From NCBI RefSeq assembly GCF_024808815.1, contig NZ_JANUCS010000001.1, positions 1-64,000 on the forward strand: a stretch of DNA of 64,000 bases, in the 5' to 3' direction. This document shows positions 17,115 through 31,884 of this stretch, in pieces; within the stretch, counting starts at the first letter, position 1; each line of letters opens with the position of its first letter. A model generated the notes under the pieces. The model was not told the DNA's origin and did not search any database. It saw nothing but the letters and a program-made list of their open reading frames with translations. Made by a program: the position numbers and the translations under genes. The stretch comes from Methanosalsum natronophilum. Its GTDB lineage: Archaea > Halobacteriota > Methanosarcinia > Methanosarcinales > Methanosarcinaceae.

Positions 17115-17729
17115 TCAATCTTCAGGATATAGTACATAGAGACATGCATTTTCACGCATTTCCATATAACCTTGTGTTTCAGAAACTCCGGCTTTTGACA
17201 AAAGTACTTTTTTCCAAGCTTCTGGAGGCATTGCAACATGCCCTGTATATGATTTTGCAGCTATTTGTGCATAATTTAATGGTTTACCCGCAATCTTTAT
17301 TCTTTTTGCAACTTCTTGTCGATATGTTTGATGCATCATACATGCGCTAAATGCAGCTGATGGTTGTACAGTATTGTTATAGTGGTCAGTTGCTTCCCTG
17401 TGAACTTGGTTGAAGTTCCCTAGCCTTTTTATATATTCACGTATAGCATTTGAAAATGGACAAATCTCAGTTACAAAACCGTTTGGACTAATTTGCTTTA
17501 TCCCTTCAAAAGAAGAGAAAACGGATTCGCCTGCAGATACTGCATTTGCAAAATCTTCCCAAGTTTCATATTCTTCTTCTGGGACTGCTTTTGCTAAAGA
17601 CTCTGCCTGGCTAATCATATAATTAGTGAAACCTTCAACTCCTTGTTTATCAGCTATATCCTCAAAAAACAAGAATACTGAAACATCAATAAATGGGTTT
17701 GATTTTATATCTTCTGCCACAATAATCAC
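17115..17729 (-). CDS. Uncharacterised Cys-containing protein, paralog of its neighbour
   Basis: I do not recognise this 204-residue protein. It is soluble, with no signal or membrane segment. Landmarks are EICPFSNAIREYIKRLG (about residues 89-105) and ACMMHQTYRQEVAKRI (about 130-145). The gene two bases upstream encodes a diverged paralog with VCTMAPTMHRYIQKIG and CNYCITHQKFREVA in the same places. The shared Cys and C-x2-H-Q suggest metal or cofactor binding or a catalytic Cys. The two probably form a heteromer. Position downstream of pycB's promoter region does not indicate a function. Confidence 0.6.
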   Translation of the reverse strand: MIIVAEDIKSNPFIDVSVFLFFEDIADKQGVEGFTNYMISQAESLAKAVPEEEYETWEDFANAVSAGESVFSSFEGIKQISPNGFVTEICPFSNAIREYIKRLGNFNQVHREATDHYNNTVQPSAAFSACMMHQTYRQEVAKRIKIAGKPLNYAQIAAKSYTGHVAMPPEAWKKVLLSKAGVSETQGYMEMRENACLYVLYPED

Positions 17730-17731
17730 CT

Positions 17732-18361
17732 TTACAACTCAATATCTCCATCTGAACTAGTTTTTCCTTTAATAACTAATGCATAAACACAAGAAGCACT
17801 TCTTAATATACTTTTGATATGTCTCTCGTCAACATTTATTTTTGAGAGATTTTCAGGTAGCATTTTCACTTCACCTAAACGCCCCTTATTTGCAAGTTGA
17901 AGACAATCAAGTTCTTGTTTTGCAACAGTTATATTATTGGATGCAACTTCTCTAAACTTTTGATGTGTTATGCAGTAGTTACATACAGATGAATCATGAA
18001 CTCTTACATTAAAGCTATCTGAAACATCATTATCAGATTCTGGAAGTGGACCGATCTTTTGAATATAACGGTGCATAGTAGGGGCCATTGTACATACCTT
18101 CAAAGCATAAACATACCCTATTACATCACCATCGCGATCTGTTATAGCTAAATCAGTAAGTACATTAACGCTGCCTTCCATAGTAAGAGCTGTACGCCCT
18201 TCTTTCATAGCAACATTGAATGCAGGCCAACCCACATACGCTTCTTTCCCCATTCTTTCAGCATATGATTCACCGACGCGAAGCCAATATTCTACAACTC
18301 CTTCTGTACCTGCCTTGCCGACCATATCGTCAACAAGCGAGTATAATGCAATATCCATCAT
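17732..18361 (-). CDS. Uncharacterised Cys-containing protein, first of paralogous pair
   Basis: A 209-residue soluble protein I cannot assign. It shares with the following gene a Cys before a helical Arg/Tyr-rich stretch (VCTMAPTMHRYIQKIG), and a Cys-His pair (CNYCITHQKFREVA), plus the same overall length and order. It has an additional Cys in CNYC and near the C-terminus (SASCVYALVI aligns with NACLYVLYPE). The two genes are 2 nt apart, hence one operon. An N-terminal GKAGTEGVVEYW matches DKQGVEGFTNYM in the paralog. Substrate and reaction are unknown. Confidence 0.6.
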   Translation of the reverse strand: MMDIALYSLVDDMVGKAGTEGVVEYWLRVGESYAERMGKEAYVGWPAFNVAMKEGRTALTMEGSVNVLTDLAITDRDGDVIGYVYALKVCTMAPTMHRYIQKIGPLPESDNDVSDSFNVRVHDSSVCNYCITHQKFREVASNNITVAKQELDCLQLANKGRLGEVKMLPENLSKINVDERHIKSILRSASCVYALVIKGKTSSDGDIEL

Positions 18362-18832: not shown

Positions 18833-19369
18833 TCATTTACTCTTATCATAGGCTAAAGCCCACAAAAGCTCACGGTTTTTTGGATATAGTTCTGTTGTCG
18901 TGAAATTATCTTCCTCAATGATTGATTTTGCTTCTGATATAGATTCTACTTTAACAAACTCGTCTTTTTTTCCATTAATTCGATATCTCAAAAATAAATT
19001 CCCATCCTTAGATTTTATTAGATCAGCAAAATCCATAGATTCATCATTTTTCTTCTTTTTTTCAAATGATTTGTGGCTTTTAGAATACCACATTGTAAAG
19101 ATGGTATCATTTTCACTTAATGAAACGTTATCATCTTCTGGAGGGGTTGTATCATGAGGTTTATTTTCATCTCTCGATAAAGTACTTAATGAACCGTCAA
19201 TAGGTTTTTCAGTTGATTTTTCTGAAACATTCTCTTTTTTTGGTTGGGTCTTATAAGAGTTTGTGTTTTTCATAGCATGAAATTTTTTAAACTCATCGAC
19301 TATAGATTTTTTATTATTGTTTCTATTTGATGGATTTTCTTGAATAAATTGTATCCACCTATTGTTCAT
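18833..19369 (-). CDS. Uncharacterised protein at the end of the che block
   Basis: About 178 residues, no recognised family. The N-terminal ~100 residues are Asn/Ser/Lys/Pro-rich and probably disordered. The C-terminal part (FADLIKSKDGNLFLRYRINGKKDEFVKVESISEAKSIIEE, split here by position 110-165) looks like a small globular alpha/beta domain, ending with NRELLWALAYDKSK. The preferred start is ATG at 19369, directly behind GGTGATT; a longer frame exists to 19408. It follows cheC by about 60 nt and is the last gene of the chemotaxis run, so a role in taxis signalling is inferred from position only. Confidence 0.5.
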   Translation of the reverse strand: MNNRWIQFIQENPSNRNNNKKSIVDEFKKFHAMKNTNSYKTQPKKENVSEKSTEKPIDGSLSTLSRDENKPHDTTPPEDDNVSLSENDTIFTMWYSKSHKSFEKKKKNDESMDFADLIKSKDGNLFLRYRINGKKDEFVKVESISEAKSIIEEDNFTTTELYPKNRELLWALAYDKSK

Positions 19370-19429
19370 GTAATCACCATGTCGTGTTGAGATTATTAAA
19401 TGAATCATTTAAGTATATACCCATAAACA

Positions 19430-20089
19430 TTAGCTCATCAAGATTTGATCCAACGAATTTATGAGACTTTCTTTTGACTCATTGTTGAGAAATAAAAACA
19501 TATCGGAATATAGGGTATTAAGTCCCGAAGAGCCTGACACTGACTCAACCATAAACATAGTTTCAAGCACTAAGGTATCATTATCTATTAAACCATCATC
19601 ATTATCATTTGAAAATTCAATTAAATTTTCTAGGACATTAAATATAGTTCCAGAAACACTATATGGAGATGAATGTGTTACATTTATACCTAAAAATTGG
19701 GAAACAGCATTAAAATAAGAACCTATTAATATATTCGTTGTTTCATTAATTGATGATTCACTATATGTAAAATCTTCATCTTCAACATTATCTAAAACAA
19801 CATCTCTCAGTAGAATAGCATTATTTACATCCATCAGCATTAATGAAAATCCATCAATATCTCCTTTTAGCCTAGATATAATTCCAACCATTGTTATTGA
19901 TTCAGGAATCGAAGTGGCCATTTGCCTGATATCAAGAGTATATACATTAGCAAGGTTCAGTTTTACCCTTTTTCCAATCATGTTTGAAAGAGATGTGGTT
20001 GCATTTCCCATACCAATGGTAGCAATTTCTTTTATAGCATCAACATGAAAAGATTTTAGCTTTTGATTGTCTTGGATGTTCTCGTCCAT
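19430..20089 (-). CDS. cheC: Chemotaxis protein CheC (CheY-P phosphatase family), copy 1
   Basis: CheC dephosphorylates CheY-P and binds CheD in archaea and Firmicutes. This 219-residue copy has both phosphatase signatures with the E-x2-N pattern: IKEIATIGMGNATTSLS near residues 20-36 and SINETTNILIGSYFNAVSQFL near 115-135. Both putative sites look intact. It is encoded 21 nt after cheD, and a second CheC precedes cheD, so CheC-CheD complexes with two different CheC partners are possible. Confidence 0.9.
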   Translation of the reverse strand: MDENIQDNQKLKSFHVDAIKEIATIGMGNATTSLSNMIGKRVKLNLANVYTLDIRQMATSIPESITMVGIISRLKGDIDGFSLMLMDVNNAILLRDVVLDNVEDEDFTYSESSINETTNILIGSYFNAVSQFLGINVTHSSPYSVSGTIFNVLENLIEFSNDNDDGLIDNDTLVLETMFMVESVSGSSGLNTLYSDMFLFLNNESKESLINSLDQILMS

Positions 20090-20109
20090 AAAGTTATTCT
20101 CTCCCTATA

Positions 20110-20586
20110 TCATATAATGATAGTTCCATAAAGTGCACTTTTAACTGTCAAATTACCAGTATTAGTATCAAGTTTGATCGTTCGCCCATAATTCTTGCCA
20201 GTATCCTGACCTTTTATTGGGATGTTTAATTTATATAATACTTCTTTAGTGGAACTAATGTTCCTTTCGCCTATTTTTAGGTTACCATTTTTTGAACTGA
20301 ACATGCTGGCTCCACCTACAATCTTAGCCTCTAATCTCCTTTTAGATGCGCCCCTTTCAATAATATCATCTATTAATAGTGGTATTCCAGTATCTGCAAA
20401 CTTAGCTAAATTTTCTTTAGACCTTGCTTGATCAACAGATGGGAGCATGATATGTAAAAGTCCACCCAATTTAGTTTTTGAATCATATAATGTAATTCCT
20501 ACACATGACCCTAAGCCTAATGTTGTCAAGCTTATAGGTGATGTACCTATAGCATAATCTGCCATTCCAACGGTAATTATATTCAT
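20110..20586 (-). CDS. cheD: Chemoreceptor glutamine deamidase CheD
   Basis: CheD deamidates glutamines on chemoreceptors and is regulated by binding CheC. The 158-residue protein carries the family signature LGLGSCVGITLYDSKTKLGG with catalytic Cys at about residue 28, and the catalytic His in GLLHIMLPS about 17 residues later. A later GGASMF and the IGERN motif are also standard. It sits between two cheC genes. No receptor gene is present in this window. Confidence 0.92.
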   Translation of the reverse strand: MNIITVGMADYAIGTSPISLTTLGLGSCVGITLYDSKTKLGGLLHIMLPSVDQARSKENLAKFADTGIPLLIDDIIERGASKRRLEAKIVGGASMFSSKNGNLKIGERNISSTKEVLYKLNIPIKGQDTGKNYGRTIKLDTNTGNLTVKSALYGTIII

Positions 20587-20619
20587 TAACTATTACATCC
20601 AACATTGTAACTACTTAAG

Positions 20620-21249
20620 TCAACTAACCATTCCATCAATTATATCCATAATGATTTTAAGTGAGGCCGTATCAACCAGTACTAAAATATTTCCTTCAAC
20701 AATATCATTTTTTACTTTCATTTCTGTATCAAGAACAAGAGAGTGTTCAAAGTCCTTGCTCATTTCTATTAAAACGAGGTCTAATATAGCACCGGCCATG
20801 TCATAAGTTGCAGAAGGTGTATCTATTGAAATATTCATGTTAAGAAAATTTGAAAGAGAAGTTACATATGTGCCACCTAAGATATGTCCAATTTCTTCCA
20901 TCATAGACATAATCATTTCATTCTTAGTCTCTTCATCGAAATTCGATAAAAGTTTTGAAGATATTGAGTTTACACTCTCAACTGGTAATAATATTGTCAT
21001 ATATCCATTCAAATCACCATATATTTGCATGACTATACCATAAACAACGGATTCTTCACCACCAATTACTTGTGGTATTTTTTCTATACGTTGCAATTGC
21101 AAAGATGGAACTTTTATTGCTACCTCATCACCAACTAACTTTGATAAAGAAGTTGCAGCATTCCCAAACCCAATATTTGCTATTTCGCATAGAGAATCAT
21201 GTTGAAACTCAGTCAAATTGTTAGTTTTGTTCAATTTAAACCCTACCAT
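20620..21249 (-). CDS. cheC: Chemotaxis protein CheC, copy 2
   Basis: A 209-residue CheC paralog. The first phosphatase signature is intact (LCEIANIGFGNAATSLSKL, E-x2-N). In the second (MEEIGHILGGTYVTSLSNFL) the Asn is replaced by His, so that site is probably inactive or altered. The two CheC copies in this operon are clearly diverged, which suggests that one serves as CheY-P phosphatase and the other mainly as a CheD partner; that split is inference. It follows cheR by 5 nt. Confidence 0.88.
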   Translation of the reverse strand: MVGFKLNKTNNLTEFQHDSLCEIANIGFGNAATSLSKLVGDEVAIKVPSLQLQRIEKIPQVIGGEESVVYGIVMQIYGDLNGYMTILLPVESVNSISSKLLSNFDEETKNEMIMSMMEEIGHILGGTYVTSLSNFLNMNISIDTPSATYDMAGAILDLVLIEMSKDFEHSLVLDTEMKVKNDIVEGNILVLVDTASLKIIMDIIDGMVS

Positions 21250-21254
21250 TATAA

Positions 21255-22082
21255 TTATTTCCGATATACTCTCTCTTTTAAATTAAAAGGGACAAATAAA
21301 TCTTTAACATCGCCTACTAATGTTTCTGTTTTGCCTATTACTAAAAATCCTTCTTTAACCAAAGAAGAATGAAATTTGTGATAAAGTTTTTCTTGTAATT
21401 CCCTTTCAAAATAGATTGTCACATTTCTGCATAAAATTAAATCAAAATTTCCAACATTCCCCCCTGAAATCAAATCATGGTGTTTGAATTTAACTAGATT
21501 TTTAAGTTTATCTTTTACATGATATTTGTTATCTTGGAATGTAAAATAAGTTTCCAATGTATTAGAATCTATATTTCTAACTTCCATTGAAGTATATATC
21601 CCTTCTGTAGCTCTATTAAGGCTCTTATTATCGATATCAGTTCCCAAGATTTTTATATTATATCTATTAATTTTACTACCTAGTGCTTTATTCAAAAGGA
21701 TTGCAACCGAATAGGCTTCTACCCCTATTGAAGAACCAGCGCTCCACACATTTACTGAGCTAACATTTTTCTTTTTGAGTATTTCGGGTAGGACTTTTTG
21801 TTCAATTAGTTCGTATGTTTCTTTATTTCGAAAAAATTCAGTTACATTTACTGTTAGTGTATCAATTAATTTTTCCAGTTCCTTGGGTTCATTTTTAAGA
21901 ACTTTTACATATTGAGAATATTCTGTACAGTTATTAGCACGCAATCGGATGTCAATTCTCCTTTTAAAGTGAGATGGTTTATATTGATCACAGTTGAAAC
22001 CTATTTTTTTATTGATTGTTTTTTTAAGTTCAATAAAATCAGAATCTTCATTTAAAGTTTTAATCTCTGTATTTCTATCCAT
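21255..22082 (-). CDS. cheR: Chemoreceptor methyltransferase CheR
   Basis: CheR methylates receptor glutamates with SAM. The 275-residue protein has the N-terminal helical CheR domain (IGFNCDQYKPSHFKRRIDIRLRA, with the Arg-rich helix), then TVNVTEFFRN, the SAM site VWSAGSSIGVEAYSVAIL, ILGTDIDNKSLNRA, and FDLILCRNVTIYFE. CheR usually has 'A-GCS-GEE' in the SAM loop; here it reads AGSSIGVEAY, so the usual Cys and first Glu are changed. No TPR extension. It lies 24 nt after cheB. Confidence 0.92.
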   Translation of the reverse strand: MDRNTEIKTLNEDSDFIELKKTINKKIGFNCDQYKPSHFKRRIDIRLRANNCTEYSQYVKVLKNEPKELEKLIDTLTVNVTEFFRNKETYELIEQKVLPEILKKKNVSSVNVWSAGSSIGVEAYSVAILLNKALGSKINRYNIKILGTDIDNKSLNRATEGIYTSMEVRNIDSNTLETYFTFQDNKYHVKDKLKNLVKFKHHDLISGGNVGNFDLILCRNVTIYFERELQEKLYHKFHSSLVKEGFLVIGKTETLVGDVKDLFVPFNLKERVYRK

Positions 22083-22106
22083 TTCTACACCACTGAATTG
22101 TTCCGA

Positions 22107-23219
22107 TTAAGTCATATTCTTGTAAAATTCAATCACTTCATATGGAATTTTGTCCAAAGGTATTACTTTTTCTGCAAGGTTGTTATCTACTATTACTTTT
22201 GGCATCCCATATACTACACATGTTTCTTTATGTTCAGCATAAGTTATACCACCCATTCTTTTAATTTCATTCACTCCGTCCAAGCCATCACTTCCCATTC
22301 CTGTAAGAACAAGAGAAAGTATGTTGGAACCATAAATAGGAGCTATTGATCTAAAAAGAACATTTACAGCTGGCCTAACTCCCTTCTCCTTTGGATTTTT
22401 ATTAAGCCTAATCACACCTTCTAATTTCCCTTTTATTTTCTCTTCAATTACTTCCATATGGAAATCCCCAGGAGCAATTAAAACTAATCCTTCCTTTACA
22501 ATATCGCCTTCTTCAGCCTCCTTAACTTTTAAATTAGAATGTAAATCCAGTCTTTTAGAGAATGATGCTGTAAAACTAGCGGGCATATGTTGTACAACTA
22601 AAACAGCTGCTGGGAAATTTTTTGGTAAGTTAGGTATGATTTTTTCAAGAGCCCGAGGACCACCAGTTGAAGACCCGATAGCTAAAATTTTTTTATTAAT
22701 ATGTGCTTTCTCGATAACTTGTACTTTTTTTTCAACTGGTATTCCTTTAACAACAGTTTTTTGTGAGTTTTGCTGGATATTCTTGCAGACATGTTCTTCC
22801 ATGAAGTTTAACTTTTTAACATCAACACTGGCTGCAATCTTTACTTTTGAGCAAATTTCATTGGCCAAAGAAGATATGTCAAGACTTATACTTCCAGATG
22901 TTTTATGCACAAAATCAACTGCTCCGTATTCAAAGGCTGTTAGTGTTGTTTCTGCGCCTTTTTCGTCTAAAGAGCTTAGCATAACCACAGGTGTTGGACA
23001 TTCGCTCATAATATATCCAAGTGCTTCCAGCCCATTCAAAACAGGCATTTCTATATCTAAAGTAACAACATCCGGTCGATACCTTTCAATTTTTTCGATA
23101 GCATCTTTCCCATTTCTTGCGGTGGCTATAACATCAATCTCAGAATCATTATCAAGTATATCTGATATCACTTTTCTCATAAATGCAGAATCATCAACAA
23201 CAATGGCCTTTATTGTCAT
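22107..23219 (-). CDS. cheB: Chemotaxis response regulator methylesterase CheB
   Basis: CheB removes receptor methyl groups or deamidates glutamines when phosphorylated by CheA. Residues 1-120 form a receiver domain with D9/D10 and phospho-acceptor D55 (VTLDIEMPVLNG). A linker of ~60 residues follows. The esterase domain (about 175-370) has the Ser in IGSSTGGPRAL, His in VVQHMPASFT and Asp in LTGMGSDGLDG. All catalytic elements are present. It lies 21 nt after cheY. Confidence 0.95.
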   Translation of the reverse strand: MTIKAIVVDDSAFMRKVISDILDNDSEIDVIATARNGKDAIEKIERYRPDVVTLDIEMPVLNGLEALGYIMSECPTPVVMLSSLDEKGAETTLTAFEYGAVDFVHKTSGSISLDISSLANEICSKVKIAASVDVKKLNFMEEHVCKNIQQNSQKTVVKGIPVEKKVQVIEKAHINKKILAIGSSTGGPRALEKIIPNLPKNFPAAVLVVQHMPASFTASFSKRLDLHSNLKVKEAEEGDIVKEGLVLIAPGDFHMEVIEEKIKGKLEGVIRLNKNPKEKGVRPAVNVLFRSIAPIYGSNILSLVLTGMGSDGLDGVNEIKRMGGITYAEHKETCVVYGMPKVIVDNNLAEKVIPLDKIPYEVIEFYKNMT

Positions 23220-23240
23220 AATATCATTTTAAAATGAATT

Positions 23241-23597
23241 TTACATGACTTTTGATATGACTTCTAGCACTTTATTTGCATCGAAGGGTTTCACAATAAA
23301 GTCCTGAGCACCATTATTGATTGCTTCAGTAACAATAGACTGTTGACCAATAGATGAACACATCACCACTTTAGCGTTCTCATCGATTTCCATGATACGT
23401 TTCAATGCATCAGTACCTTCCATGTTAGGCATAACTATATCCAAGAAAACTAAGTCTGGTTTACTTTCTTTATACTTTTCAATTGCATCAAGACCATCAC
23501 CAGCTTCAGCTACAACATCATGCCCGTTCTTAGTGAGTATGTCTTTTATTACCATACGCATGAATGCTGCATCATCTACAACCATTATTTTTGCCAT
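23241..23597 (-). CDS. cheY: Chemotaxis response regulator CheY
   Basis: A 118-residue single-domain receiver. Acidic pocket D8/D9, phospho-acceptor D53 (LVFLDIVMP), Thr/Ser CSSIGQQ and Lys in FIVKPFDANK are all present. In archaea CheY-P signals to the archaellum through CheF-type adaptors. It is the first gene of the cheY-B-R-C-D-C run and has its own upstream region of about 350 nt. No cheA, cheW or cheF gene is seen nearby. Confidence 0.95.
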   Translation of the reverse strand: MAKIMVVDDAAFMRMVIKDILTKNGHDVVAEAGDGLDAIEKYKESKPDLVFLDIVMPNMEGTDALKRIMEIDENAKVVMCSSIGQQSIVTEAINNGAQDFIVKPFDANKVLEVISKVM

Positions 23598-23948: not shown

Positions 23949-24551
23949 TTATATTTTACCAGTCTCAAAAAATAACTTAGTATCAAGCTTATCAAGTTCA
24001 TGTTCACTATGTTTTTTAATAATATCATTTAATCTCATACGTACAGCGTTTAATTCTTTTTTGTTAGTTGAATTAACTAAAGATTCCAATGTTTTTTCAA
24101 CCATTAGCTGATAATCTCTTTCTGTACCTGTATTTCGAAGTTTTTGTATCGACTGCTCAATTATTTCACCATTCCATTCAGCATCTGAATAAAAGACCTT
24201 ATCTTCGATTTCTATTTTTTTTCGAGCAACTTCACTGTTAATTCTACTGAACATCATTTCAACAGTGTGTGGGTCACCAACAAATTCATTCATATAATGC
24301 ATAATGTCCATTACTACCTCATAATACGGAATTTCAGGATTTTCGCACTCCTTAAACAGTTGTTTTAGTTCTTTTTTAATATTGATTTCAATGGGACCTA
24401 TTAAATAGCTAGTTATTTTCTCAATATCATCCGCACACATATCTACTGTGGGCTCTTGACTAATACTATGAACATTAACTGGGTCAGCATTGTACTTTGC
24501 AACATATTTTAACAATCTTGTGCGCAACTTTTGATTATCTATGTTAACCAA
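23949..24551 (-). CDS. Uncharacterised helical protein downstream of KaiC cassette
   Basis: A 200-residue soluble protein with no family I recognise. It is rich in Glu, Lys, Ile and Met and mostly helical by composition. Features that may help a search are VDMCADDIEKITSYLIGPIE in the N-terminal third and a charged C-terminal helix (NDIIKKHSEHELDKLDTKLFF). No membrane segment, no Cys cluster. It follows the coiled-coil/winged-helix gene by 45 nt and is last in the five-gene cassette, so it may bind or regulate those proteins. Confidence 0.5.
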   Translation of the reverse strand: MVNIDNQKLRTRLLKYVAKYNADPVNVHSISQEPTVDMCADDIEKITSYLIGPIEINIKKELKQLFKECENPEIPYYEVVMDIMHYMNEFVGDPHTVEMMFSRINSEVARKKIEIEDKVFYSDAEWNGEIIEQSIQKLRNTGTERDYQLMVEKTLESLVNSTNKKELNAVRMRLNDIIKKHSEHELDKLDTKLFFETGKI

Positions 24552-24596
24552 TGTATCAGCTCAATTTATTCTATTGATAATCATATACAAATTCTG

Positions 24597-26189
24597 TTAA
24601 TTCTTTGACCTAGTATAATATACATATCGACCTTTCTTGTATTTCTCGATATATTCTGTTTCTAAAAGCTTTTCTAAGATCTTTTCTAGCACATTTTCAT
24701 CCACATCATTGGACGGTAATTTTTTTTTAATCTGTTTTAAGGTCATGCCACTATTTTCTTCTTCAATACATTTTAAGACATTCTTATCAAACAAAGATAG
24801 TTCAGTACTGAAATGCTCTTTTAGCAACCCAAGTTCATCTTTGATGCTTATTACTTCTTCATTAAGTTGAGATAGGTCAGATTCAATCTTATTGTTATTA
24901 GATTTAATAGCAACGTCAATTTTGTTGTTTACAGAATTTAATTGTTCTTCTAAAAGTTCCTGCAGTTCTTCTCTTCCCTTCTTCATTTGATTTTCTTTTA
25001 ATGTGTTTAATTGAAATTGTAATTCATTAATTTCATCTTTATTATCTGATTTTTGAGTTTCAATTTCTTTTTCAATAGCTTTTATATTTTCGCTTAATTT
25101 TTTGAGTGTTTTTGTGTGAATATTAATTGCATGTGCAACTTGGTTTGCACCTTCCTCTTCAAAAGATGAATTTTCGCTAGATTTATGATTTATTTCTTGT
25201 ATGTTATTTTCAAGTTCTTCTTGCTTGTTTGAAATATTTTCCATTTGTTCAGATATTTTATCAGCAATATCTTCAAAATAATTCATTTTTTCCAGTATGT
25301 CAACATAGAGGTCTTCGTGAAGTCTTACTTTATCAATAACATATTCCATACTTCCTGTTTCAACAAATGATTTGAAGTCTCTTGTTTCATATCCCGGAAT
25401 ATACTCCATTAAATTACGTACAAGTTCTAAATATGTAGCATGGATTTGTTTTGGGGAAACAAGTTTGTTCTCTATGGCTTCTGCGAGTTTGTATACTGTG
25501 AATCTTCCAGTTTCAAACCTAAAAAAATCAACACCTGCACTTGAAGACCTAACCTTTTTTATAACCTTAAATACGATATCATGTGCATCTTTTTCACCCA
25601 CAAAAGTAACAAGTTCTGTAAAAATATTATTCAGTGTTTTTTTATAAGCTATTTCAAGAACATCAGGAGGTATTTTTGAAGCGTCTAGAACTTCATTGTG
25701 AGAAGCATCAGCTTCTTTTGCAACCCTACGTAATCTTTTAGAAAATAAATTAAACTCATTTTTAACACTTATAAAATCTTCTTCTTCCGTTTTATTTTGA
25801 AGTCTTTCATTTACTTCAGATAACCTTCTAGAAGATGTTTCCTTTTGATCTTCCAAGGAATTTTCAAGTTCAGTTATTTCATCAGTTAATTTTAAAAGTT
25901 GATTTTGGATACTTGCTATTAGGTTTTCATCCACATCTTTTTTGTTACCTAATTCAGGTTGAGGTTGACTTAAAATATCCTCATTATTCGATTCTATTTT
26001 ATTTACTTCTGGACGATAGTCATGAGGACTTTTTTCTGGTAACATTAACTTATTAGTTTCTTCATTGTCATAATCTATATTTGATTCAAGTTCTTCTTGC
26101 TCATTATATGTACTAGAATCTTTTTTTGGTTCATGGGAACAGTTACATGTATCTTGGCTATTTGTACTACAATCAATAGATTCTTTCAT
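24597..26189 (-). CDS. Large coiled-coil protein with C-terminal winged helix
   Basis: The 530-residue protein has a Cys-rich N-terminus (C7, C15, C17), an acidic Asn/Glu-rich linker to ~85, a coiled coil at ~88-175, a globular helical domain at ~185-300 (DVLEIAYKKTLNNIFTELV, GYETRDFKSFVE), a long coiled coil at ~310-465, and a winged-helix-like end (TLKQIKKKLPSNDVDENVLEKILEKLLE). It resembles archaellum FlaD/E-type proteins in coiled-coil architecture, but I do not see their domain signature. It probably acts as a scaffold in the KaiC/roadblock cassette. The gene downstream starts after 45 nt, that upstream ends 29 nt before. Confidence 0.6.
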   Translation of the reverse strand: MKESIDCSTNSQDTCNCSHEPKKDSSTYNEQEELESNIDYDNEETNKLMLPEKSPHDYRPEVNKIESNNEDILSQPQPELGNKKDVDENLIASIQNQLLKLTDEITELENSLEDQKETSSRRLSEVNERLQNKTEEEDFISVKNEFNLFSKRLRRVAKEADASHNEVLDASKIPPDVLEIAYKKTLNNIFTELVTFVGEKDAHDIVFKVIKKVRSSSAGVDFFRFETGRFTVYKLAEAIENKLVSPKQIHATYLELVRNLMEYIPGYETRDFKSFVETGSMEYVIDKVRLHEDLYVDILEKMNYFEDIADKISEQMENISNKQEELENNIQEINHKSSENSSFEEEGANQVAHAINIHTKTLKKLSENIKAIEKEIETQKSDNKDEINELQFQLNTLKENQMKKGREELQELLEEQLNSVNNKIDVAIKSNNNKIESDLSQLNEEVISIKDELGLLKEHFSTELSLFDKNVLKCIEEENSGMTLKQIKKKLPSNDVDENVLEKILEKLLETEYIEKYKKGRYVYYTRSKN

Positions 26190-26218
26190 TATTAGGCTCC
26201 AATCTACATAATATAATT

Positions 26219-26992
26219 TTAAACAAATGCTTCAAGTTTGCGTTTTATATCAGGAATCCAATCACTTTCACATAGATCAGCAACATAGTCACCATGTATT
26301 GGCCTTATTTGCTCATTTATAACAAGATCTAACAGCATTATCCAAAGATCTTCATTCATCCATTTAGGAGATGACGCAACTTCATAAAAAGCCATTGCAA
26401 GAACTTGATCAACTTCAGTTTTTCCCATGACTGTTGAGATCTTGGTTTTAATATCTGCAAGTATCTCCATGTTTTTCTTATATTCTGATGAGTGTGTATA
26501 CATTTCTTCAAAAACATTTCTGCTTAAAATACGTAATTCTTTAGAAACTTCAGATGAATATTGATCAAGTTGATCACTAGTCATTGGTTTTTGTTCAAAT
26601 ATATGTTTAATAACTTTTCTTGAGATTTCAATTTTATGTACATTTGCTCCTAAATCTGTTTTCCCAGTGAAAAGTGAAATCAAAAGAGCTCCTTTACCTA
26701 CTGAAGAAAAAATTGCAGTAGTTCCCATATCATATTCAATTACAGCTTGATTTAAACCTAGTTCAAGTTGTTGGGCGATATGGTGCATATTATTAGTGAT
26801 TAAATTTGTCAGTTCAAATATTTTCGAGCCTATATTTTCAGGAATATATGAAGAGTAGATCTTACCATCAATTCCTGAAAACATCACAACATCAACATCT
26901 GTTGTTTCATACATTCGTTGTAGTTGTCTAGTAAGTGCAAATTTAAGAAGAGATACATCTTCTAAATCCTCTTTTGTCTTTTTAACTGACAC
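26219..26992 (-). CDS. Roadblock/LC7-like signalling protein
   Basis: A 257-residue protein. Residues ~15-125 have the roadblock/LC7 pattern: a helix, then VDVVMFSGIDGKIYSSYIPE, a helix (FELTNLITNNMHHIAQQLE), then AVIEYDMGTTAIFSSVGKGALLISLF and a final helix. Residues ~140-257 form a separate helical domain of unknown type. Roadblock domains usually work with small GTPases or KaiC/RecA-like ATPases. Here the KaiC-like gene ends only 12 nt upstream, supporting direct interaction. The roadblock call rests on pattern, not alignment. Confidence 0.6.
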   Translation of the reverse strand: MSVKKTKEDLEDVSLLKFALTRQLQRMYETTDVDVVMFSGIDGKIYSSYIPENIGSKIFELTNLITNNMHHIAQQLELGLNQAVIEYDMGTTAIFSSVGKGALLISLFTGKTDLGANVHKIEISRKVIKHIFEQKPMTSDQLDQYSSEVSKELRILSRNVFEEMYTHSSEYKKNMEILADIKTKISTVMGKTEVDQVLAMAFYEVASSPKWMNEDLWIMLLDLVINEQIRPIHGDYVADLCESDWIPDIKRKLEAFV

Positions 26993-27004
26993 ATTATCAC
27001 TTCT

Positions 27005-28066
27005 TTAATTTACAATCTCTTCGAGTTCACTTAAATCTTCCATGTCAATCAAAGAATCAGATTCCATCTCAGTACTATCAGTTCTATTATCAGTTGTTAC
27101 ATCCTCTTCTGATTTGGTATCTTTATATTCAGTATTATCTTCACTTATGGATGAGTCGACTTCAGTGTCATTTCGGGCTTTTGGAGCAGTTCCAGTGAGA
27201 TCATGCATCTCAAACATTAGTTGTAGTGTTTCTTTAGGAGAAAAACTATATGACCAGCCTTGTTTGATTTTCTTTAGTTTATCTTGTAGAGATCGAGGTG
27301 CACCTAATTCAGTAGCTGTCTTTATAGCTTTGTCAAAAACATCATCATATTTGTTAATATCTTCTGCAGATACCATTGGAGTTGTTCGTACCACAACACC
27401 TAATCCTCTTACAAAAATATATGGATAAACCTCTTCACCGTGCCTAGTAGCTCTCATTTTGATTATCTCAAGAGCACGATTAAAGGCTCCACCTATAGGA
27501 CGATATGTCAAGTGAACAGCACCATCCGATAGATAAACAGGTATAAGAACATCTTCACCCATAGTTTCACCTGGTGATGCGTGTTCTTCAGTAGTTACCA
27601 AGACCGGACCTATTTGCTTTAATGTATAAAATAACTTAGTTATTAATTCTCTTTGTTCTTGTTTATCTTTAACTGACCAAATCATAGGAGTAAGTGGATC
27701 AATTACAACACGAGTATTCACATCAAGTTCCTGACTTGCTTCAACTAATGAAGGAAGTTGTTCTTCTACTAAGTTCCTAAAGTCTTCCCCTTTTGAATGG
27801 AAAAAAAAGAGCTCATTTTCATAATATTCATCCATGTCAAAACCAAGCATTTTGGCTTCACGCATTATTTGCTCAGGGGGTTCTTCTAAACTTATATAAA
27901 GAGCATTTTCACCTCTTTCAAGGCCATACATTATATACTGCATCGAAAATGTTGATTTTCCAGTTCCACTTGATCCCACAACTAATAATGTTGTATTATC
28001 AAGTACCCCTCCTTCAATTACTCTGTCAAGTCCAGTAATTCCTGTTGGAATTCTTTCTACATTCAT
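27005..28066 (-). CDS. KaiC-like RecA-superfamily ATPase
   Basis: A 353-residue single-domain KaiC-like protein. The N-terminus RIPTGITGLDRVIEGG is standard. Walker A is GSSGTGKST (residues 31-39), the catalytic Glu pair is in YISLEEPPEQI, Walker B is TRVVIDPLTPMIW. Later RATRHGEEVYPYIF matches the KaiC end of the ATPase core. Residues ~240-290 form an extra helical part and the last ~60 are acidic and probably disordered. KaiC-like ATPases have been proposed to be signalling hubs in archaea. This one is flanked by a V4R-like and a roadblock-like gene and is not the archaellum motor protein FlaH, as no other archaellum genes are adjacent. Confidence 0.85.
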   Translation of the reverse strand: MNVERIPTGITGLDRVIEGGVLDNTTLLVVGSSGTGKSTFSMQYIMYGLERGENALYISLEEPPEQIMREAKMLGFDMDEYYENELFFFHSKGEDFRNLVEEQLPSLVEASQELDVNTRVVIDPLTPMIWSVKDKQEQRELITKLFYTLKQIGPVLVTTEEHASPGETMGEDVLIPVYLSDGAVHLTYRPIGGAFNRALEIIKMRATRHGEEVYPYIFVRGLGVVVRTTPMVSAEDINKYDDVFDKAIKTATELGAPRSLQDKLKKIKQGWSYSFSPKETLQLMFEMHDLTGTAPKARNDTEVDSSISEDNTEYKDTKSEEDVTTDNRTDSTEMESDSLIDMEDLSELEEIVN

Positions 28067-28154
28067 TTTTTTACCTCAAAGTTCCTATTGTGATTAAATA
28101 ATCACCAAGTTATCCTAAAATTCAATTTTCACAGAATAACCAATTATTTAGAAC

Positions 28155-29054
28155 TTATTTTTTCTTTTTCATCTTTGAAAGTAAATCTGAAAAACTATCC
28201 CCTTTTGATGTTGATGTGTTGGGTTCACTGTTTTTTGCACTGTCATTTCCATTATTTGTGGGTTTGGCCTTTGTAAAGAGATTTTCCTCTGAGGGAATTT
28301 TCTGACTGTTGCCCTCTTTATTTGTAGACTTATCTTTCATTGCACCAAAAGCTGCCCCAAATGTTCCTTTTTCTTTAGCTATTGATTCTAACTCTTCATG
28401 TTTTTTCCAAGGAGGATCAAATACTTTTTCTTGGTAGGATAAATTTCCTGCATATTGCATATAGGTCTTCCCTATTTCAGACATTTTATTTTCTTCAATT
28501 AACTTGTAAATTGATAATAGTTCAATTCTTTTTTTGTATTCTGTAGAATCAATATCTAGTGGACTTTGTCCGGTTAATATATTTTTATCAATCTCATCAA
28601 TCAAAATTTTGTATGCAGATATTGGTTGCAAGCCAACCTTAAATTTACATGCCGAATCACCATTCTTTACACATTCTATTTCTTCGACATTGCATTCAAT
28701 TTCAAGAGCTTCTGTGAAAAATCTATATAATGCATCAGTAGTTGCTGTACAAACCTTTTGATTATTTAAAGCGGGGTATAGACTACAGACTGGGCACTTA
28801 GCTACTCCGTATATATAATTCATAGGAGCAAAGCCGATTAGTTGAAGGTTACCAAGACCAAATTTTTTGAACAGGCCAACATGGAATTTATATAGAGACG
28901 TTGCCTTAATATCATCGATTGTGATAGATTTTAAAAATTTTCTAGATTCATTCCATGGTACTTTCGACTTTGGCAAATTTTCTGTAATAGCTTCTTGTAT
29001 TTTCAGCATCTTACCAAAAGCACCCATTGACTGTGCGAAACCAGTACCTTCCAT
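28155..29054 (-). CDS. V4R-like ligand-binding protein (start uncertain)
   Basis: At least 299 residues. Residues ~30-145 resemble a V4R (4-vinyl reductase/hydrocarbon-binding) domain: FHVGLFKKFGLGN, then CPVCSLYPALNNQKVCTATTDALYRFF and CNVEEIECVKNGDSACKFKV with several Cys that may bind metal. The C-terminal third is polar, probably disordered, with short repeats of Lys/Ser. The first ATG is 29054, but no Shine-Dalgarno precedes it. A strong GGAGG at 29130-29126 is followed after 8 nt by an in-frame ATA (29117), with no stop between, so translation may begin there. It is the first gene of the KaiC cassette. Confidence 0.6.
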   Translation of the reverse strand: MEGTGFAQSMGAFGKMLKIQEAITENLPKSKVPWNESRKFLKSITIDDIKATSLYKFHVGLFKKFGLGNLQLIGFAPMNYIYGVAKCPVCSLYPALNNQKVCTATTDALYRFFTEALEIECNVEEIECVKNGDSACKFKVGLQPISAYKILIDEIDKNILTGQSPLDIDSTEYKKRIELLSIYKLIEENKMSEIGKTYMQYAGNLSYQEKVFDPPWKKHEELESIAKEKGTFGAAFGAMKDKSTNKEGNSQKIPSEENLFTKAKPTNNGNDSAKNSEPNTSTSKGDSFSDLLSKMKKKK

Positions 29055-29603
29055 TGAAGGGGGGGTAGATGATGTTATATCCTCAAAAGGAGGAGAATCT
29101 GTGTGATTGTCAGTTATTTTATCAGCCTCCAGTTTACAATTTCATAGATAGGAACCATCCCTCAATCTCCTTATTTATTAATACACGTATTTATTTACTT
29201 ATTGATGTCTAAACAATATATTCTCTATTAACTATAAGTTTTAAATTAAGCAATATATTAAATTAATTTATTTTCATATGGATTTTTCATCTAATATTAG
29301 AAATATTAACAAATATTTTTGTTTTACCATGCATTTTTAAACTCATTGATAGTATCAATATACAATTAAAATCTTACATCACTTAGAATATTAAAAAGAA
29401 AATTTTGAAATACAATACTTATTTCTCAAGTAAACACATCATACTAGATAAATCAACAATAGAATATTGTTAGCATTTCTATTTCTTTTGGTACTACTAT
29501 ATTATTTAACTATTTTATACCTTCCTTCTTTATAATCCAAGGAATATTTTGTATGTTTAAATATTTTATGTCTACAATTATCTTTTTTTTGCTTATTTTA
29601 AAA
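29055..29603 (-). promoter_or_regulatory. 549-nt intergenic region, promoter of the KaiC cassette
   Basis: Very AT-rich. The left end may encode an N-terminal extension of the V4R-like protein (29055-29117). Beyond that no ORF, RNA gene or clear inverted repeat was recognised. It should contain the promoter for the V4R-KaiC-roadblock genes and the 3' end of the acetyltransferase transcript, both on the minus strand. Confidence 0.4.
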
Positions 29604-30473
29604 TTATCTTCTCTGCGTTCCTTTAATAAAATACCTTTGCTTTCCACATTCCGAACACAGTATTAAAATACCATTTCTTTTACCCGAAATGATATATTTT
29701 TTCCCATGAAAATTTCCACAAGTACAAGGAGATTTCATTTGAAATGTTCCATTATACCTTGGTTTGTTACAAGAATTTAAAGACTTCTTTTTAATATCTA
29801 CTAAATCCTGTTCATTTTGAACATTATTTAATTCATTCATACTTGATTTAGTTGATTTTGTACAATTATCACTACTAAATTTGTCTTTTTTATCCTTTTT
29901 TTGAATATTGTGAGTATCAAAAAGACTTTCTGTGCATTCAGATATGTTTTTACAATTCAAGCTAATACCGTGTATTGGTCTATTAATATTCATTTTGCTT
30001 ACATCAAGTGCCATATATCCAGGGTAATTACCTAGCTCAATTGGAACATCTTTTTGAGAAGAGCTGAAATTTAGTGATGAAAAGAAATTTTTAGCATCTT
30101 TATTTACTGGTTTTGTGATAATATAGCCTATTAACACCATTGAAGACAGAGTGAAAAGTGCTTTACCTATACCTTTTCTTTTAATATTTGGATGTACTTC
30201 AATTCCTCTTAATACAAATATTGGTTTTTCTTGTGATGAGCAGTCATTCCATCTTTCATTCATAACCCAACCAATTATATTAAATTTAAAAACAGCAACT
30301 ATGAAAAGGATATTTTTTCTTTTTAGCCAGCTTTTAAAGTTAAGCAGATAATCAGACATACCAAGGTGATGTTTAAAATATACATACTCGCCAATTCTTA
30401 GTTTATCAACTTCTGTAGGATCCTCTAAGCGATAAAAGAAAATGCCATTTTCTGATTTAGCGAGTTGTTTCAT
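29604..30473 (-). CDS. GNAT acetyltransferase with C-terminal zinc ribbon
   Basis: The 289-residue protein has a GNAT acetyl-CoA binding core at ~40-150; the signature is VHPNIKRKGIGKALFTLSSMVL, matching the R/Q-x-x-G-x-G/A loop. A low-complexity Lys/Ser/Asn linker covers ~165-240. The last ~50 residues have a Cys pattern C-x-C (PCTCGNFHG) and C-x2-C (LCSECGKQR), a zinc ribbon. It lies 46 nt downstream of a histone-deacetylase-family gene on the same strand, so the pair may write and erase acetyl marks on the same substrate. Substrate is unknown. Confidence 0.7.
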   Translation of the reverse strand: MKQLAKSENGIFFYRLEDPTEVDKLRIGEYVYFKHHLGMSDYLLNFKSWLKRKNILFIVAVFKFNIIGWVMNERWNDCSSQEKPIFVLRGIEVHPNIKRKGIGKALFTLSSMVLIGYIITKPVNKDAKNFFSSLNFSSSQKDVPIELGNYPGYMALDVSKMNINRPIHGISLNCKNISECTESLFDTHNIQKKDKKDKFSSDNCTKSTKSSMNELNNVQNEQDLVDIKKKSLNSCNKPRYNGTFQMKSPCTCGNFHGKKYIISGKRNGILILCSECGKQRYFIKGTQRR

Positions 30474-30519: not shown

Positions 30520-31884
30520 TTATTTTCCAAATGACGTTAGTTTTTTTAGCTTACTTAGATTTTTCTGAGTGTCTATGTAAATATTCTTTTGCATATTTTT
30601 TTCATATTGTGAAAATATATTTTTTTCAATAAATGGATTTTTTCTGCCTAATATGCCTGATATGAAACTATGACATAGTTGACCGTTATACTTATGGTAG
30701 CCACCCTCTAATAAAACTACAAATGGAACAGAAGAATTTGACTTCAGCCAGTAGCCAATTTCATAATAACCTTCTGATGTCATGTTTAACTTATTATTTT
30801 TTTCTTTATAATAACCATCAAAACCACAGCAACAAATAATAAAATCAGGAGAATAAGTGATTAATACATGTGAAATTATTTCATTAAAAACTAGTTGATA
30901 ATCTTTATCCCCTGCCCCTTTAGCCATTTCAATGTTTAATGTATATCCTTTTCCTTTACCATCTCCAAGTTGATCGCTGAACCCAGTTCTTGGGTAATAG
31001 TTTCGTGGATCATGGTGAATTGAAACAGTCATTACCGTAGGATCCTGATAAAAGATGTCCATAGTTCCATTACCTGAATGTGCATCCCAGTCCAGTATTA
31101 GAATTTTTTTATATTTATGGTATTTTTGGAGATATCTAGCAAGTATTGCGCCATTGTTCAATAAACAAAAACCACTGTATTTGTCAACACCTGCATGATG
31201 TCCAGGTGGTCTTACTAAAGCAAATGAAGAATAATAGCTGCCTTCTATCACAAGTTCGGCGGCTTTTATGGAACCCCCTACTGCTTTTAAGGCTACATTA
31301 TAAGATGATTCAGTAATATAAGTACTATCACCTAAAAAGCCACCACCTTTTGAAGCATATGATTTTAAGAAGTCTAAATAGGTCTTTGAGTGTACAAGCA
31401 TTATATCTTTTTCATTAGCTTTTTCAAAATCATTAAACAAGTCTATCATTTTATCCTCAAAGACTCTATTTTTTTTTAAGTACCAGTAGGCTTCAAACAA
31501 TCTTTGGGGGTTTTCTGGGCTTTCTATACCTAACAAAGAAGAAGTATGGGTGCTGTGATATTCATCATATACAATGGCAATTTTTGGAATTTTTTCTAAA
31601 AAAGACTCATTTGAGCAAATTTTATTATCATCACCCACCGAGTTAATTTTTTTCTGAAAGGTTTCTGCAAGATTTTTAGATGTTGAGCCATTATTTCCAC
31701 ACTTTGAAGAAGATTGATGGTGATATTGATCAGCTAAACTTATGTTTGTGGTTAATACATGTTCGTCATTAATATCTAGATCTTCCATCTCAATTGACTC
31801 ATAATCATGGTCATCAAATTTCGAAGCTACAAAATCATTGAGTTTTTTAATGTTATCTTTCTTAAAATTTGATTTTTTAACCAT
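30520..31884 (-). CDS. Histone deacetylase family (class II-like) protein
   Basis: A zinc amidohydrolase of the arginase/deacetylase fold, 454 residues. The catalytic domain starts near residue 98 (IAIVYDEYHSTHTS) after a polar, probably disordered extension not usual in the family. RPPGHHAG (225-232) has the charge-relay His pair. DWDAHSGNGT (265-274) gives zinc ligands D267 and H269, and GFDGYY gives D356. LLEGGYHK has the catalytic Tyr at ~395. Motif choice resembles class II and bacterial acetylpolyamine or acetoin-type deacetylases. Its substrate may be protein lysine, polyamine or another acetylated amine. The gene is followed by a GNAT gene. Confidence 0.88.
   Translation of the reverse strand: MVKKSNFKKDNIKKLNDFVASKFDDHDYESIEMEDLDINDEHVLTTNISLADQYHHQSSSKCGNNGSTSKNLAETFQKKINSVGDDNKICSNESFLEKIPKIAIVYDEYHSTHTSSLLGIESPENPQRLFEAYWYLKKNRVFEDKMIDLFNDFEKANEKDIMLVHSKTYLDFLKSYASKGGGFLGDSTYITESSYNVALKAVGGSIKAAELVIEGSYYSSFALVRPPGHHAGVDKYSGFCLLNNGAILARYLQKYHKYKKILILDWDAHSGNGTMDIFYQDPTVMTVSIHHDPRNYYPRTGFSDQLGDGKGKGYTLNIEMAKGAGDKDYQLVFNEIISHVLITYSPDFIICCCGFDGYYKEKNNKLNMTSEGYYEIGYWLKSNSSVPFVVLLEGGYHKYNGQLCHSFISGILGRKNPFIEKNIFSQYEKNMQKNIYIDTQKNLSKLKKLTSFGK

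Follow-up and report, generated by a model that had tools for sequence, protein, structure and literature searches.

A V4R/KaiC/roadblock gene cassette of Methanosalsum natronophilum and its linkage to archaellin genes in relatives

KaiC ATPases have been proposed as signalling hubs in archaea, and a five-gene cassette that places one of them upstream of chemotaxis genes raises the question of what such a hub might control. In the window, the 64,000-nt stretch of Methanosalsum natronophilum DNA analyzed here, five minus-strand ORFs at 23949–29117 encode, in order on that strand, a V4R-domain protein, a KaiC-like ATPase, a roadblock protein, a coiled-coil/winged-helix protein and an unknown helical protein, U (Table 1). 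All five were present as described in the initial annotation, with the small inner spacings that it had reported (KaiC-roadblock 12, roadblock-coiled-coil 29 and coiled-coil-U 45 nt) and an 88-nt gap between the V4R and KaiC genes. The neighboring cheY-B-R-C-D-C block (19430–23597, minus strand), also named there, was borne out by Pfam. It lies beyond a 351-nt gap between U and cheY, which provides no argument for a single transcript of the cassette and the che genes.

Table 1 Features of the cassette region in the window
Feature	Position	Strand	Basis
Histone-deacetylase-superfamily protein, conserved neighbor	30520–31884	−	PF00850, synteny
GNAT acetyltransferase, conserved neighbor	29604–30473	−	Acetyltransf_1, synteny
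Site of short CheF-like gene in relatives; empty in window	29118–29603	−	synteny
V4R-domain protein, ~320 aa if started at ATA 29117	28155–29117	−	Pfam V4R, NCBIfam, alignment
Site of ~112-aa Sm-like gene in relatives; empty in window	28067–28154	−	synteny
KaiC-like ATPase, single domain	27005–28066	−	Pfam KaiC, alignment motifs
Roadblock/LC7-fold protein, GTG start, C-terminal helical extension	26219–26992	−	PDB profile, AF2, Foldseek
Coiled-coil protein, C-terminal winged-helix-like end	24597–26189	−	alignment, AF2, weak HTH_27
Unknown helical protein U, TTG start	23949–24551	−	alignment
cheY	23241–23597	−	Pfam
cheB	22107–23219	−	Pfam
cheR	21255–22082	−	Pfam
cheC	20620–21249	−	Pfam
cheD	20110–20586	−	Pfam
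cheC	19430–20089	−	Pfam

The V4R protein matched Pfam PF02830 at 33.3 bits, above the cut-off of 31, and the NCBIfam model of the MsvR C-terminus at 28.8 bits; the cysteine pattern noted earlier in this domain comprised five cysteines invariant across 15 aligned orthologues. The protein has a proline-rich conserved N-terminus and a conserved C-terminal SF(A/S)(E/D)L..KMKK tail, and gave no match to PDB profiles. Its profile match spans 28158–29114 and the frame begins upstream of the first ATG (29054); the start codon is probably a non-standard ATA at 29117. The KaiC-like ATPase was likewise confirmed (Pfam PF06745, 157.5 bits), with the Walker A (GSSGTGKST) and Walker B (VVIDPLTP) motifs and the EE pair (SLEEP) conserved in 14 orthologues. 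Its C-terminal part consists of a variable linker followed by a conserved acidic tail, LIDxxxLxELEE. Identity with ArlH was rejected on a score of 50.9 bits versus the ArlH equivalog cut-off of 215, and so was a replacement of ArlH, of which a canonical copy scoring 270 bits is encoded elsewhere in the genome (G000:C5:11345-12019).

The roadblock assignment was supported by structure and by a PDB profile but not by Pfam, whose Robl_LC7 model matched none of 21 orthologues. The sole PDB match of the family profile was a roadblock/LC7 protein (9jue, E = 1.9e-4). The AF2 model showed the a-bb-a-bbb-a order, with pLDDT of ~75–90 across most of residues ~20–155, and its top Foldseek matches were all roadblock/MglB proteins (best E 2.4e-6, probability 1.00). 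For the coiled-coil/winged-helix protein the initial domain call stood, with weak coiled-coil-type matches, PDB profile matches that were mostly unrelated, and a C-terminal HTH_27 match that remained sub-threshold at 16.6 bits. Alignment delineated a conserved helical core at residues ~130–310 (AF2 core pLDDT 80), for which no PDB fold match was obtained at E ≤ 0.001. U is a less constant member, whose gene occurs in many fewer genomes than that of the roadblock protein and carries in-frame stops in four genomes; its origin as a paralogue of the coiled-coil core was rejected (hhalign probability 0.3%).

Conservation placed the cassette in an archaellum context. The V4R-KaiC-roadblock-coiled-coil set is conserved in Methanosalsum, Methanolobus, Methanomethylovorans, a Methanohalobium-like genus and one further genus, and of the 238 genomes representing the class, 37 encode a roadblock orthologue, spread over 5 of 39 genera. 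The gene order CheF-like, V4R, Sm-like, KaiC, roadblock was kept in 23/23 named loci, a conservation far above chance, with the CheF-like and Sm-like genes of the window species located on contig C15; the coiled-coil gene came next in all 22 loci whose contig continues. Archaellins, HDAC, GNAT, CheF-like and Sm-like genes are the stable neighbors. Archaellin genes lie upstream of the cassette in 16/16 named loci whose contig reaches far enough, and two to four of them were found nearby in 14/14 other genomes checked. In a set of 60 relatives, Arch_fla_DE and CheB are both present in each of the 12 genomes that carry the cassette, counts that are not corrected for kinship. The set noticed in the initial annotation is a genuine co-inherited module, but its association with che genes was confined to the window's own genus, Methanosalsum.

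A ~195-aa CheF-like protein is encoded between the GNAT and V4R genes in the relatives. Its profile scored 40.6 bits with a genuine CheF, hhalign gave a probability of 97.3% (E = 2.2e-11), and the PDB CheF was matched weakly (E = 0.011). All 15 members matched CheF-arch weakly (best E = 7.6e-4), with at most 18.5 bits among the members listed against the Pfam cut-off of 25, which was reached in none of the cassette genomes. The homology covers the last ~175 residues of CheF, comprising the second PH-like domain and the C-terminal domain, and, judged by its sequence, the protein is a short member of the CheF family. A search with the CheF profile over 326 ORFs (the window and the M. zhilinae and Methanolobus che/archaellum regions) returned only the two CheF-like proteins. 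In other genera, longer proteins related to it are encoded beside KaiC and REC-PAS-DUF835 genes. Since ordinary CheF was absent from the che regions examined in the cassette genera, short CheF may be the adaptor that is missing between chemotaxis and the archaellum. In the window species its gene (C15:44022-44615) and the Sm-like gene (C15:44709-45068) sit side by side in the archaellin/ArlCDE locus on that other contig, beside archaellin and ArlD/E genes, and no remnants of either were detected in the two corresponding gaps of the window.

Our preferred reading, a tentative one to which we give slightly less than an even chance, is that the cassette forms the core of an archaellum-linked V4R/KaiC/roadblock signalling module with output to the motor via the short CheF adaptor; the cassette probably helps steer or switch swimming. 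The V4R domain would act as a sensor of a small ligand or of redox state, thereby setting the ATPase state of a putative KaiC ring, on which the coiled-coil protein and a dimer of the roadblock protein may serve as scaffold and regulator. The output could reach the archaellum switch ArlCDE through short CheF, which would combine one PH-like domain with the C-terminal domain responsible for CheY-P binding in CheF, so that the motor might be affected alongside, or by convergence with, ordinary Che signalling; the HDAC/GNAT pair may also have a role in the module. CheF itself docks on ArlCDE and binds CheY-P (PMC9126983), and the KaiC homologues ArlH and CirA act in archaellum function (PMC13286277). 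The earlier suggestion that the cassette feeds taxis is plausible in this form, via the archaellum and short CheF, but not via the che operon. A bolder version, which we consider distinctly unlikely, would have short CheF supply the adaptor that the che regions lack, with a V4R/KaiC/roadblock complex acting directly on it as a second, CheA-independent input to the archaellum switch; in two or three other genera, the longer CheF-like proteins with their KaiC and REC-PAS-DUF835 neighbors would have an equivalent role, also in four genomes where archaellum genes were present and CheB was not found.

Several points weigh against the module reading: the CheF-like protein has a single PH-like domain where CheF has two and scores below the Pfam cut-off, the ArlC-J motor operon is distant in most genera, and the presence of Sm-like, winged-helix, HDAC and GNAT genes would fit control of archaellin expression or modification just as well. 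The HDAC-superfamily protein scored 281.5 bits with PF00850 and carries the motifs RPPGHHA, DWDAHSGNGT and EGGY; the GNAT protein scored 23.5 bits with Acetyltransf_1 (cut-off 20.7) and has a zinc-ribbon-like end with a C-terminal Cys-pair. Both genes are conserved in the cluster, and the Sm-like profile matched SmD3 (E = 1.5e-3). Under this alternative the cassette would act on archaellin, setting its amount or its modification, and not on the motor: its KaiC would work like Haloferax CirA, with the winged-helix and Sm-like proteins conveying its effect to the expression of archaellin genes, and HDAC and GNAT would (de)acetylate a regulator or surface protein. Archaellins are indeed the nearest conserved filament genes, the ArlC-J motor operon lying far from the cassette in most genera, and CirA and CirD affect archaellation (PMC13286277). 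We nevertheless regard this explanation as somewhat unlikely, given the CheF-family gene between GNAT and V4R, the sub-threshold winged-helix match and a conserved core without a clear DNA-binding regulator.

MglB and MglC were among the best Foldseek matches of the roadblock model, and in Methanolobus the cassette is often followed by MinD-like, TrmB-like and second KaiC genes; for MinD-like ATPases, a location near type IV pilus loci has been described (PMC4858521). These observations favor a role in positioning, with an MglB-like roadblock protein, a coiled-coil scaffold and, in Methanolobus, a MinD-like ATPase defining where archaella or motors are assembled. This role appears quite improbable, as the cassette showed no MglA-like GTPase, the fold similarity to MglB is common to all roadblock proteins, and the MinD gene is absent from the window cluster.

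A general che module was rejected by genomic distance: no che linkage is conserved across genera, and outside Methanosalsum same-contig CheB genes lie ~137 kb or more from the cassette. A missing and replaced CheA was rejected as well, contig C15 of the window genome carrying MCP, CheW, a second CheY and CheA (CheA-CheC with MCP-CheW-CheY); the replacement of receptor/CheA input that the initial annotation considered possible is not supported. That a V4R-KaiC switch feeds the adjacent che operon, replacing or complementing this input, is the least probable explanation. In its favor, the cassette adjoins cheY-B-R-C-D-C in the window and MCP-CheW-CheY-CheB-CheA in M. zhilinae, and every cassette genome (12/12) has CheB; against it, no other genus keeps the cassette next to che genes, and MCP, CheW, CheY and CheA are still in the window genome.

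KaiC-like ATPases had been reported before in the vicinity of archaellum and type IV pilus loci, and their partners are mostly unknown (PMC4858521). The cassette suggests V4R and roadblock proteins as possible partners and gives a testable way for KaiC ATPases to act on the swimming motor. Methanosarcina che2 regions lack CheF, which left their route to the archaellum open (Schlesner et al. 2009, PMC2666748), and for related genera the cassette supplies a specific candidate for the adaptor. KaiC and roadblock genes near archaellum or pilus loci were known before; no description of the fixed set of V4R, Sm-like, KaiC, roadblock, coiled-coil, short CheF and HDAC/GNAT genes was found in the literature searched.

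Among known systems, KaiC genes beside archaellum genes, as in the cassette, and arCOG02603 roadblock/LC7 proteins and MinD-like ATPases near pilus loci have been reported (PMC4858521). ArlH shares with the cassette ATPase the KaiC superfamily and the archaellum context. CirA and CirD of Haloferax volcanii are KaiC-like archaellation regulators, cirA lying close to an arl gene; the passages of PMC13286277 consulted mention neither roadblock nor V4R nor CheF partners for them. The V4R-type domains of MsvR and MetOD1 of methanogens share the cysteine-rich V4R-like domain (PMC5847659), whereas the cassette protein has long flexible N- and C-terminal tails and no detected DNA-binding domain. MglB/roadblock proteins share the fold of the cassette roadblock protein at a low sequence identity of about 10–22%; the latter differs from MglB by its C-terminal extension and by having KaiC instead of the MglA GTPase as gene neighbor. 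Finally, CheF (DUF439, PF04283) has two N-terminal PH domains and a C-terminal domain and was reported only from che regions, except for two Haloarcula paralogues (Schlesner 2009, PMC2666748), whereas the short CheF-like protein has one PH-like domain and its gene adjoins V4R/KaiC rather than cheY in most genera.

All five genes of the cassette were confirmed as real at the positions given in the initial annotation, with intergenic gaps of 88, 12, 29 and 45 nt. Pfam identified the KaiC protein clearly (157.5 bits) and the V4R protein narrowly above the cut-off (33.3 bits), and matched the identities previously assigned to the che genes. The proposed roadblock protein was supported by profile and structure comparison but not by Pfam, which gave no match in any of the 21 orthologues tested. 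A PDB search with the family profile returned a single match, a roadblock/LC7 protein (E = 1.9e-4), the AF2 model showed its secondary elements in roadblock order, and its top Foldseek matches were all roadblock/MglB structures. The fold call is based on the N-terminal ~150 residues of this model, whose mean pLDDT was only 64 overall and whose C-terminal helices were unreliable. The coiled-coil protein contained a helical core conserved in alignment (AF2 pLDDT 80), the model of which had no match among PDB structures.

The V4R frame was conserved 5′ of its first ATG with no in-frame ATG, GTG or TTG ahead of it; an ATA located behind GGAGG at normal spacing is a possible non-standard start codon. 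Alignments also revealed, after variable linkers, a conserved acidic motif at the KaiC end and a conserved lysine-rich KMKK motif at the V4R end, both of which look like candidate docking or modification (acetylation) sites.

Coordinates of the cassette and associated features (C15, other contig of the window genome; L021 and L111, M. zhilinae loci; L099 and L100, loci in genera without the cassette)
Feature	Location	Remark
V4R	28155..29117 (-)	
V4R 5′ region	29054-29117 (-)	ATG 29054, ATA 29117
V4R end	28155-28200	KMKK
KaiC	27005..28066 (-)	
KaiC end	27005-27100	acidic motif
Roadblock	26219..26992 (-)	
Coiled-coil	24597..26189 (-)	
U (unknown helical protein)	23949..24551 (-)	
CheY, two copies	23241-23597; C15:19703-20056	91.5% identical
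CheF-like, short	C15:44022-44615	~195 aa
Sm-like	C15:44709-45068	~112 aa
Adjacent protein pair	17115-18361; L111:5321-6567	17115-17729 tested
191-aa protein	18833-19408; L111:4729-5205	
M. zhilinae HDAC	L021:3012-4504	
Locus with longer CheF-like	L099:3755-10644	CheF-like 289 aa
Locus with longer CheF-like	L100:6729-10342	CheF-like 378 aa

Gene order was conserved: CheF-like–V4R–Sm-like–KaiC–roadblock was found in 23 of 23 named loci. The full order in relatives runs from archaellin(s), a secreted protein, a lipoprotein, histone-deacetylase-like gene(s) (HDAC), an acetyltransferase (GNAT) and CheF-like through V4R, Sm-like, KaiC, roadblock and coiled-coil to a second GNAT and, variably, U, often followed by second KaiC, TrmB-like and MinD-like genes. 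Archaellins lay near the cassette in all 16 named loci on sufficiently long contigs, and each of 14 other genomes checked carried 2–4 archaellin genes there; the canonical motor operon with ArlH was usually elsewhere. The suggested association with che genes held within the window genus but not outside it, where CheB and the cassette were unlinked, at least about 137 kb apart wherever both shared one contig.

Across 238 genomes of the class, the roadblock profile matched 37 (5 of 39 genera) and the coiled-coil core profile 36 in the same 5 genera. Among 60 relatives, the 12 genomes with roadblock were also those with the V4R protein, for which there was one extra, weak match. Roadblock co-occurred with archaellum and CheB jointly (Fisher p = 1.2e-5, uncorrected for kinship and descriptive only). 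U was found in far fewer genomes than roadblock, being absent from some and carrying in-frame stops in four (three TGA, one TAA), and is thus the least constant member, decaying or dispensable.

In M. zhilinae (which we take to be genome G001, 2,138,444 bases), one stretch carries trp genes, an archaellum block, HDAC, GNAT, CheF-like, V4R, Sm-like, KaiC, roadblock, coiled-coil, U, an opposite-strand PAS-type protein, and then MCP, CheW, CheY, CheB, CheA and more che genes. In the window (genus Methanosalsum, genome 2.03 Mb), the genes immediately after trp are HDAC, GNAT, V4R, KaiC, roadblock, coiled-coil and U, and then CheY, CheB, CheR, CheC, CheD and CheC; C15 carries the archaellum block together with CheF-like, Sm-like, MCP, CheW, CheA and another CheY, and the che set is thus split into two halves with one CheY copy apiece. 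Nearly all genes were retained exactly once. This pattern suggests that a duplication or translocation was accompanied by complementary losses, and it speaks for every member being required; we infer that the window is the rearranged version. The M. zhilinae HDAC is seemingly split into two overlapping frames, possibly by a frameshift. Two adjacent proteins of similar size are both also retained after che in M. zhilinae, the one tested having no Pfam match, and the uncharacterised 191-aa protein closing the che set, likewise without a Pfam match, has a similarly placed ORF there.

The CheF-like protein is a CheF homologue. It matched Pfam CheF-arch weakly in 15 of 15 members (best E = 7.6e-4), as well as GRAM, and in the PDB it matched the C-terminal domain of CheF (E = 0.011); its profile scored 40.6 bits against a Pfam-accepted CheF, and profile-profile comparison gave a probability of 97.3%. 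No cassette genome passed the Pfam CheF cut-off, and when 326 ORFs from the window genome, from M. zhilinae and from the examined Methanolobus che region were searched with a CheF profile, nothing beyond CheF-like was found. In genera without the cassette, longer CheF-like proteins had a REC-PAS-DUF835 protein on one side and a KaiC ATPase on the other (two loci read). Among the genomes carrying longer CheF-like proteins, four had archaellum genes and no CheB match. The short and longer kinds never co-occurred in 60 genomes.

The analysis establishes the protein identities, the roadblock fold, the homology to CheF and the patterns of linkage and co-occurrence. In the proposed mechanism, V4R would sense a ligand or redox state, KaiC would act as the switch, roadblock and coiled-coil may form a scaffold, and output might pass through the short CheF, with acetylation possibly playing some role. 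None of the papers searched describes the cassette set, its short CheF or the complementary distribution, although they may have been mentioned in other work, of which Makarova 2017 is the most relevant. It is already known that KaiC and MinD-like ATPases, as well as roadblock proteins, occur close to archaellum or pilus loci (PMC4858521), and the KaiC homologues ArlH and CirA act in archaellation (PMC13286277). The CheF-like protein has one PH-like domain whereas CheF has two; the PH domains of CheF are thought to dock on ArlCDE, and its C-terminal domain binds CheY-P (PMC9126983).
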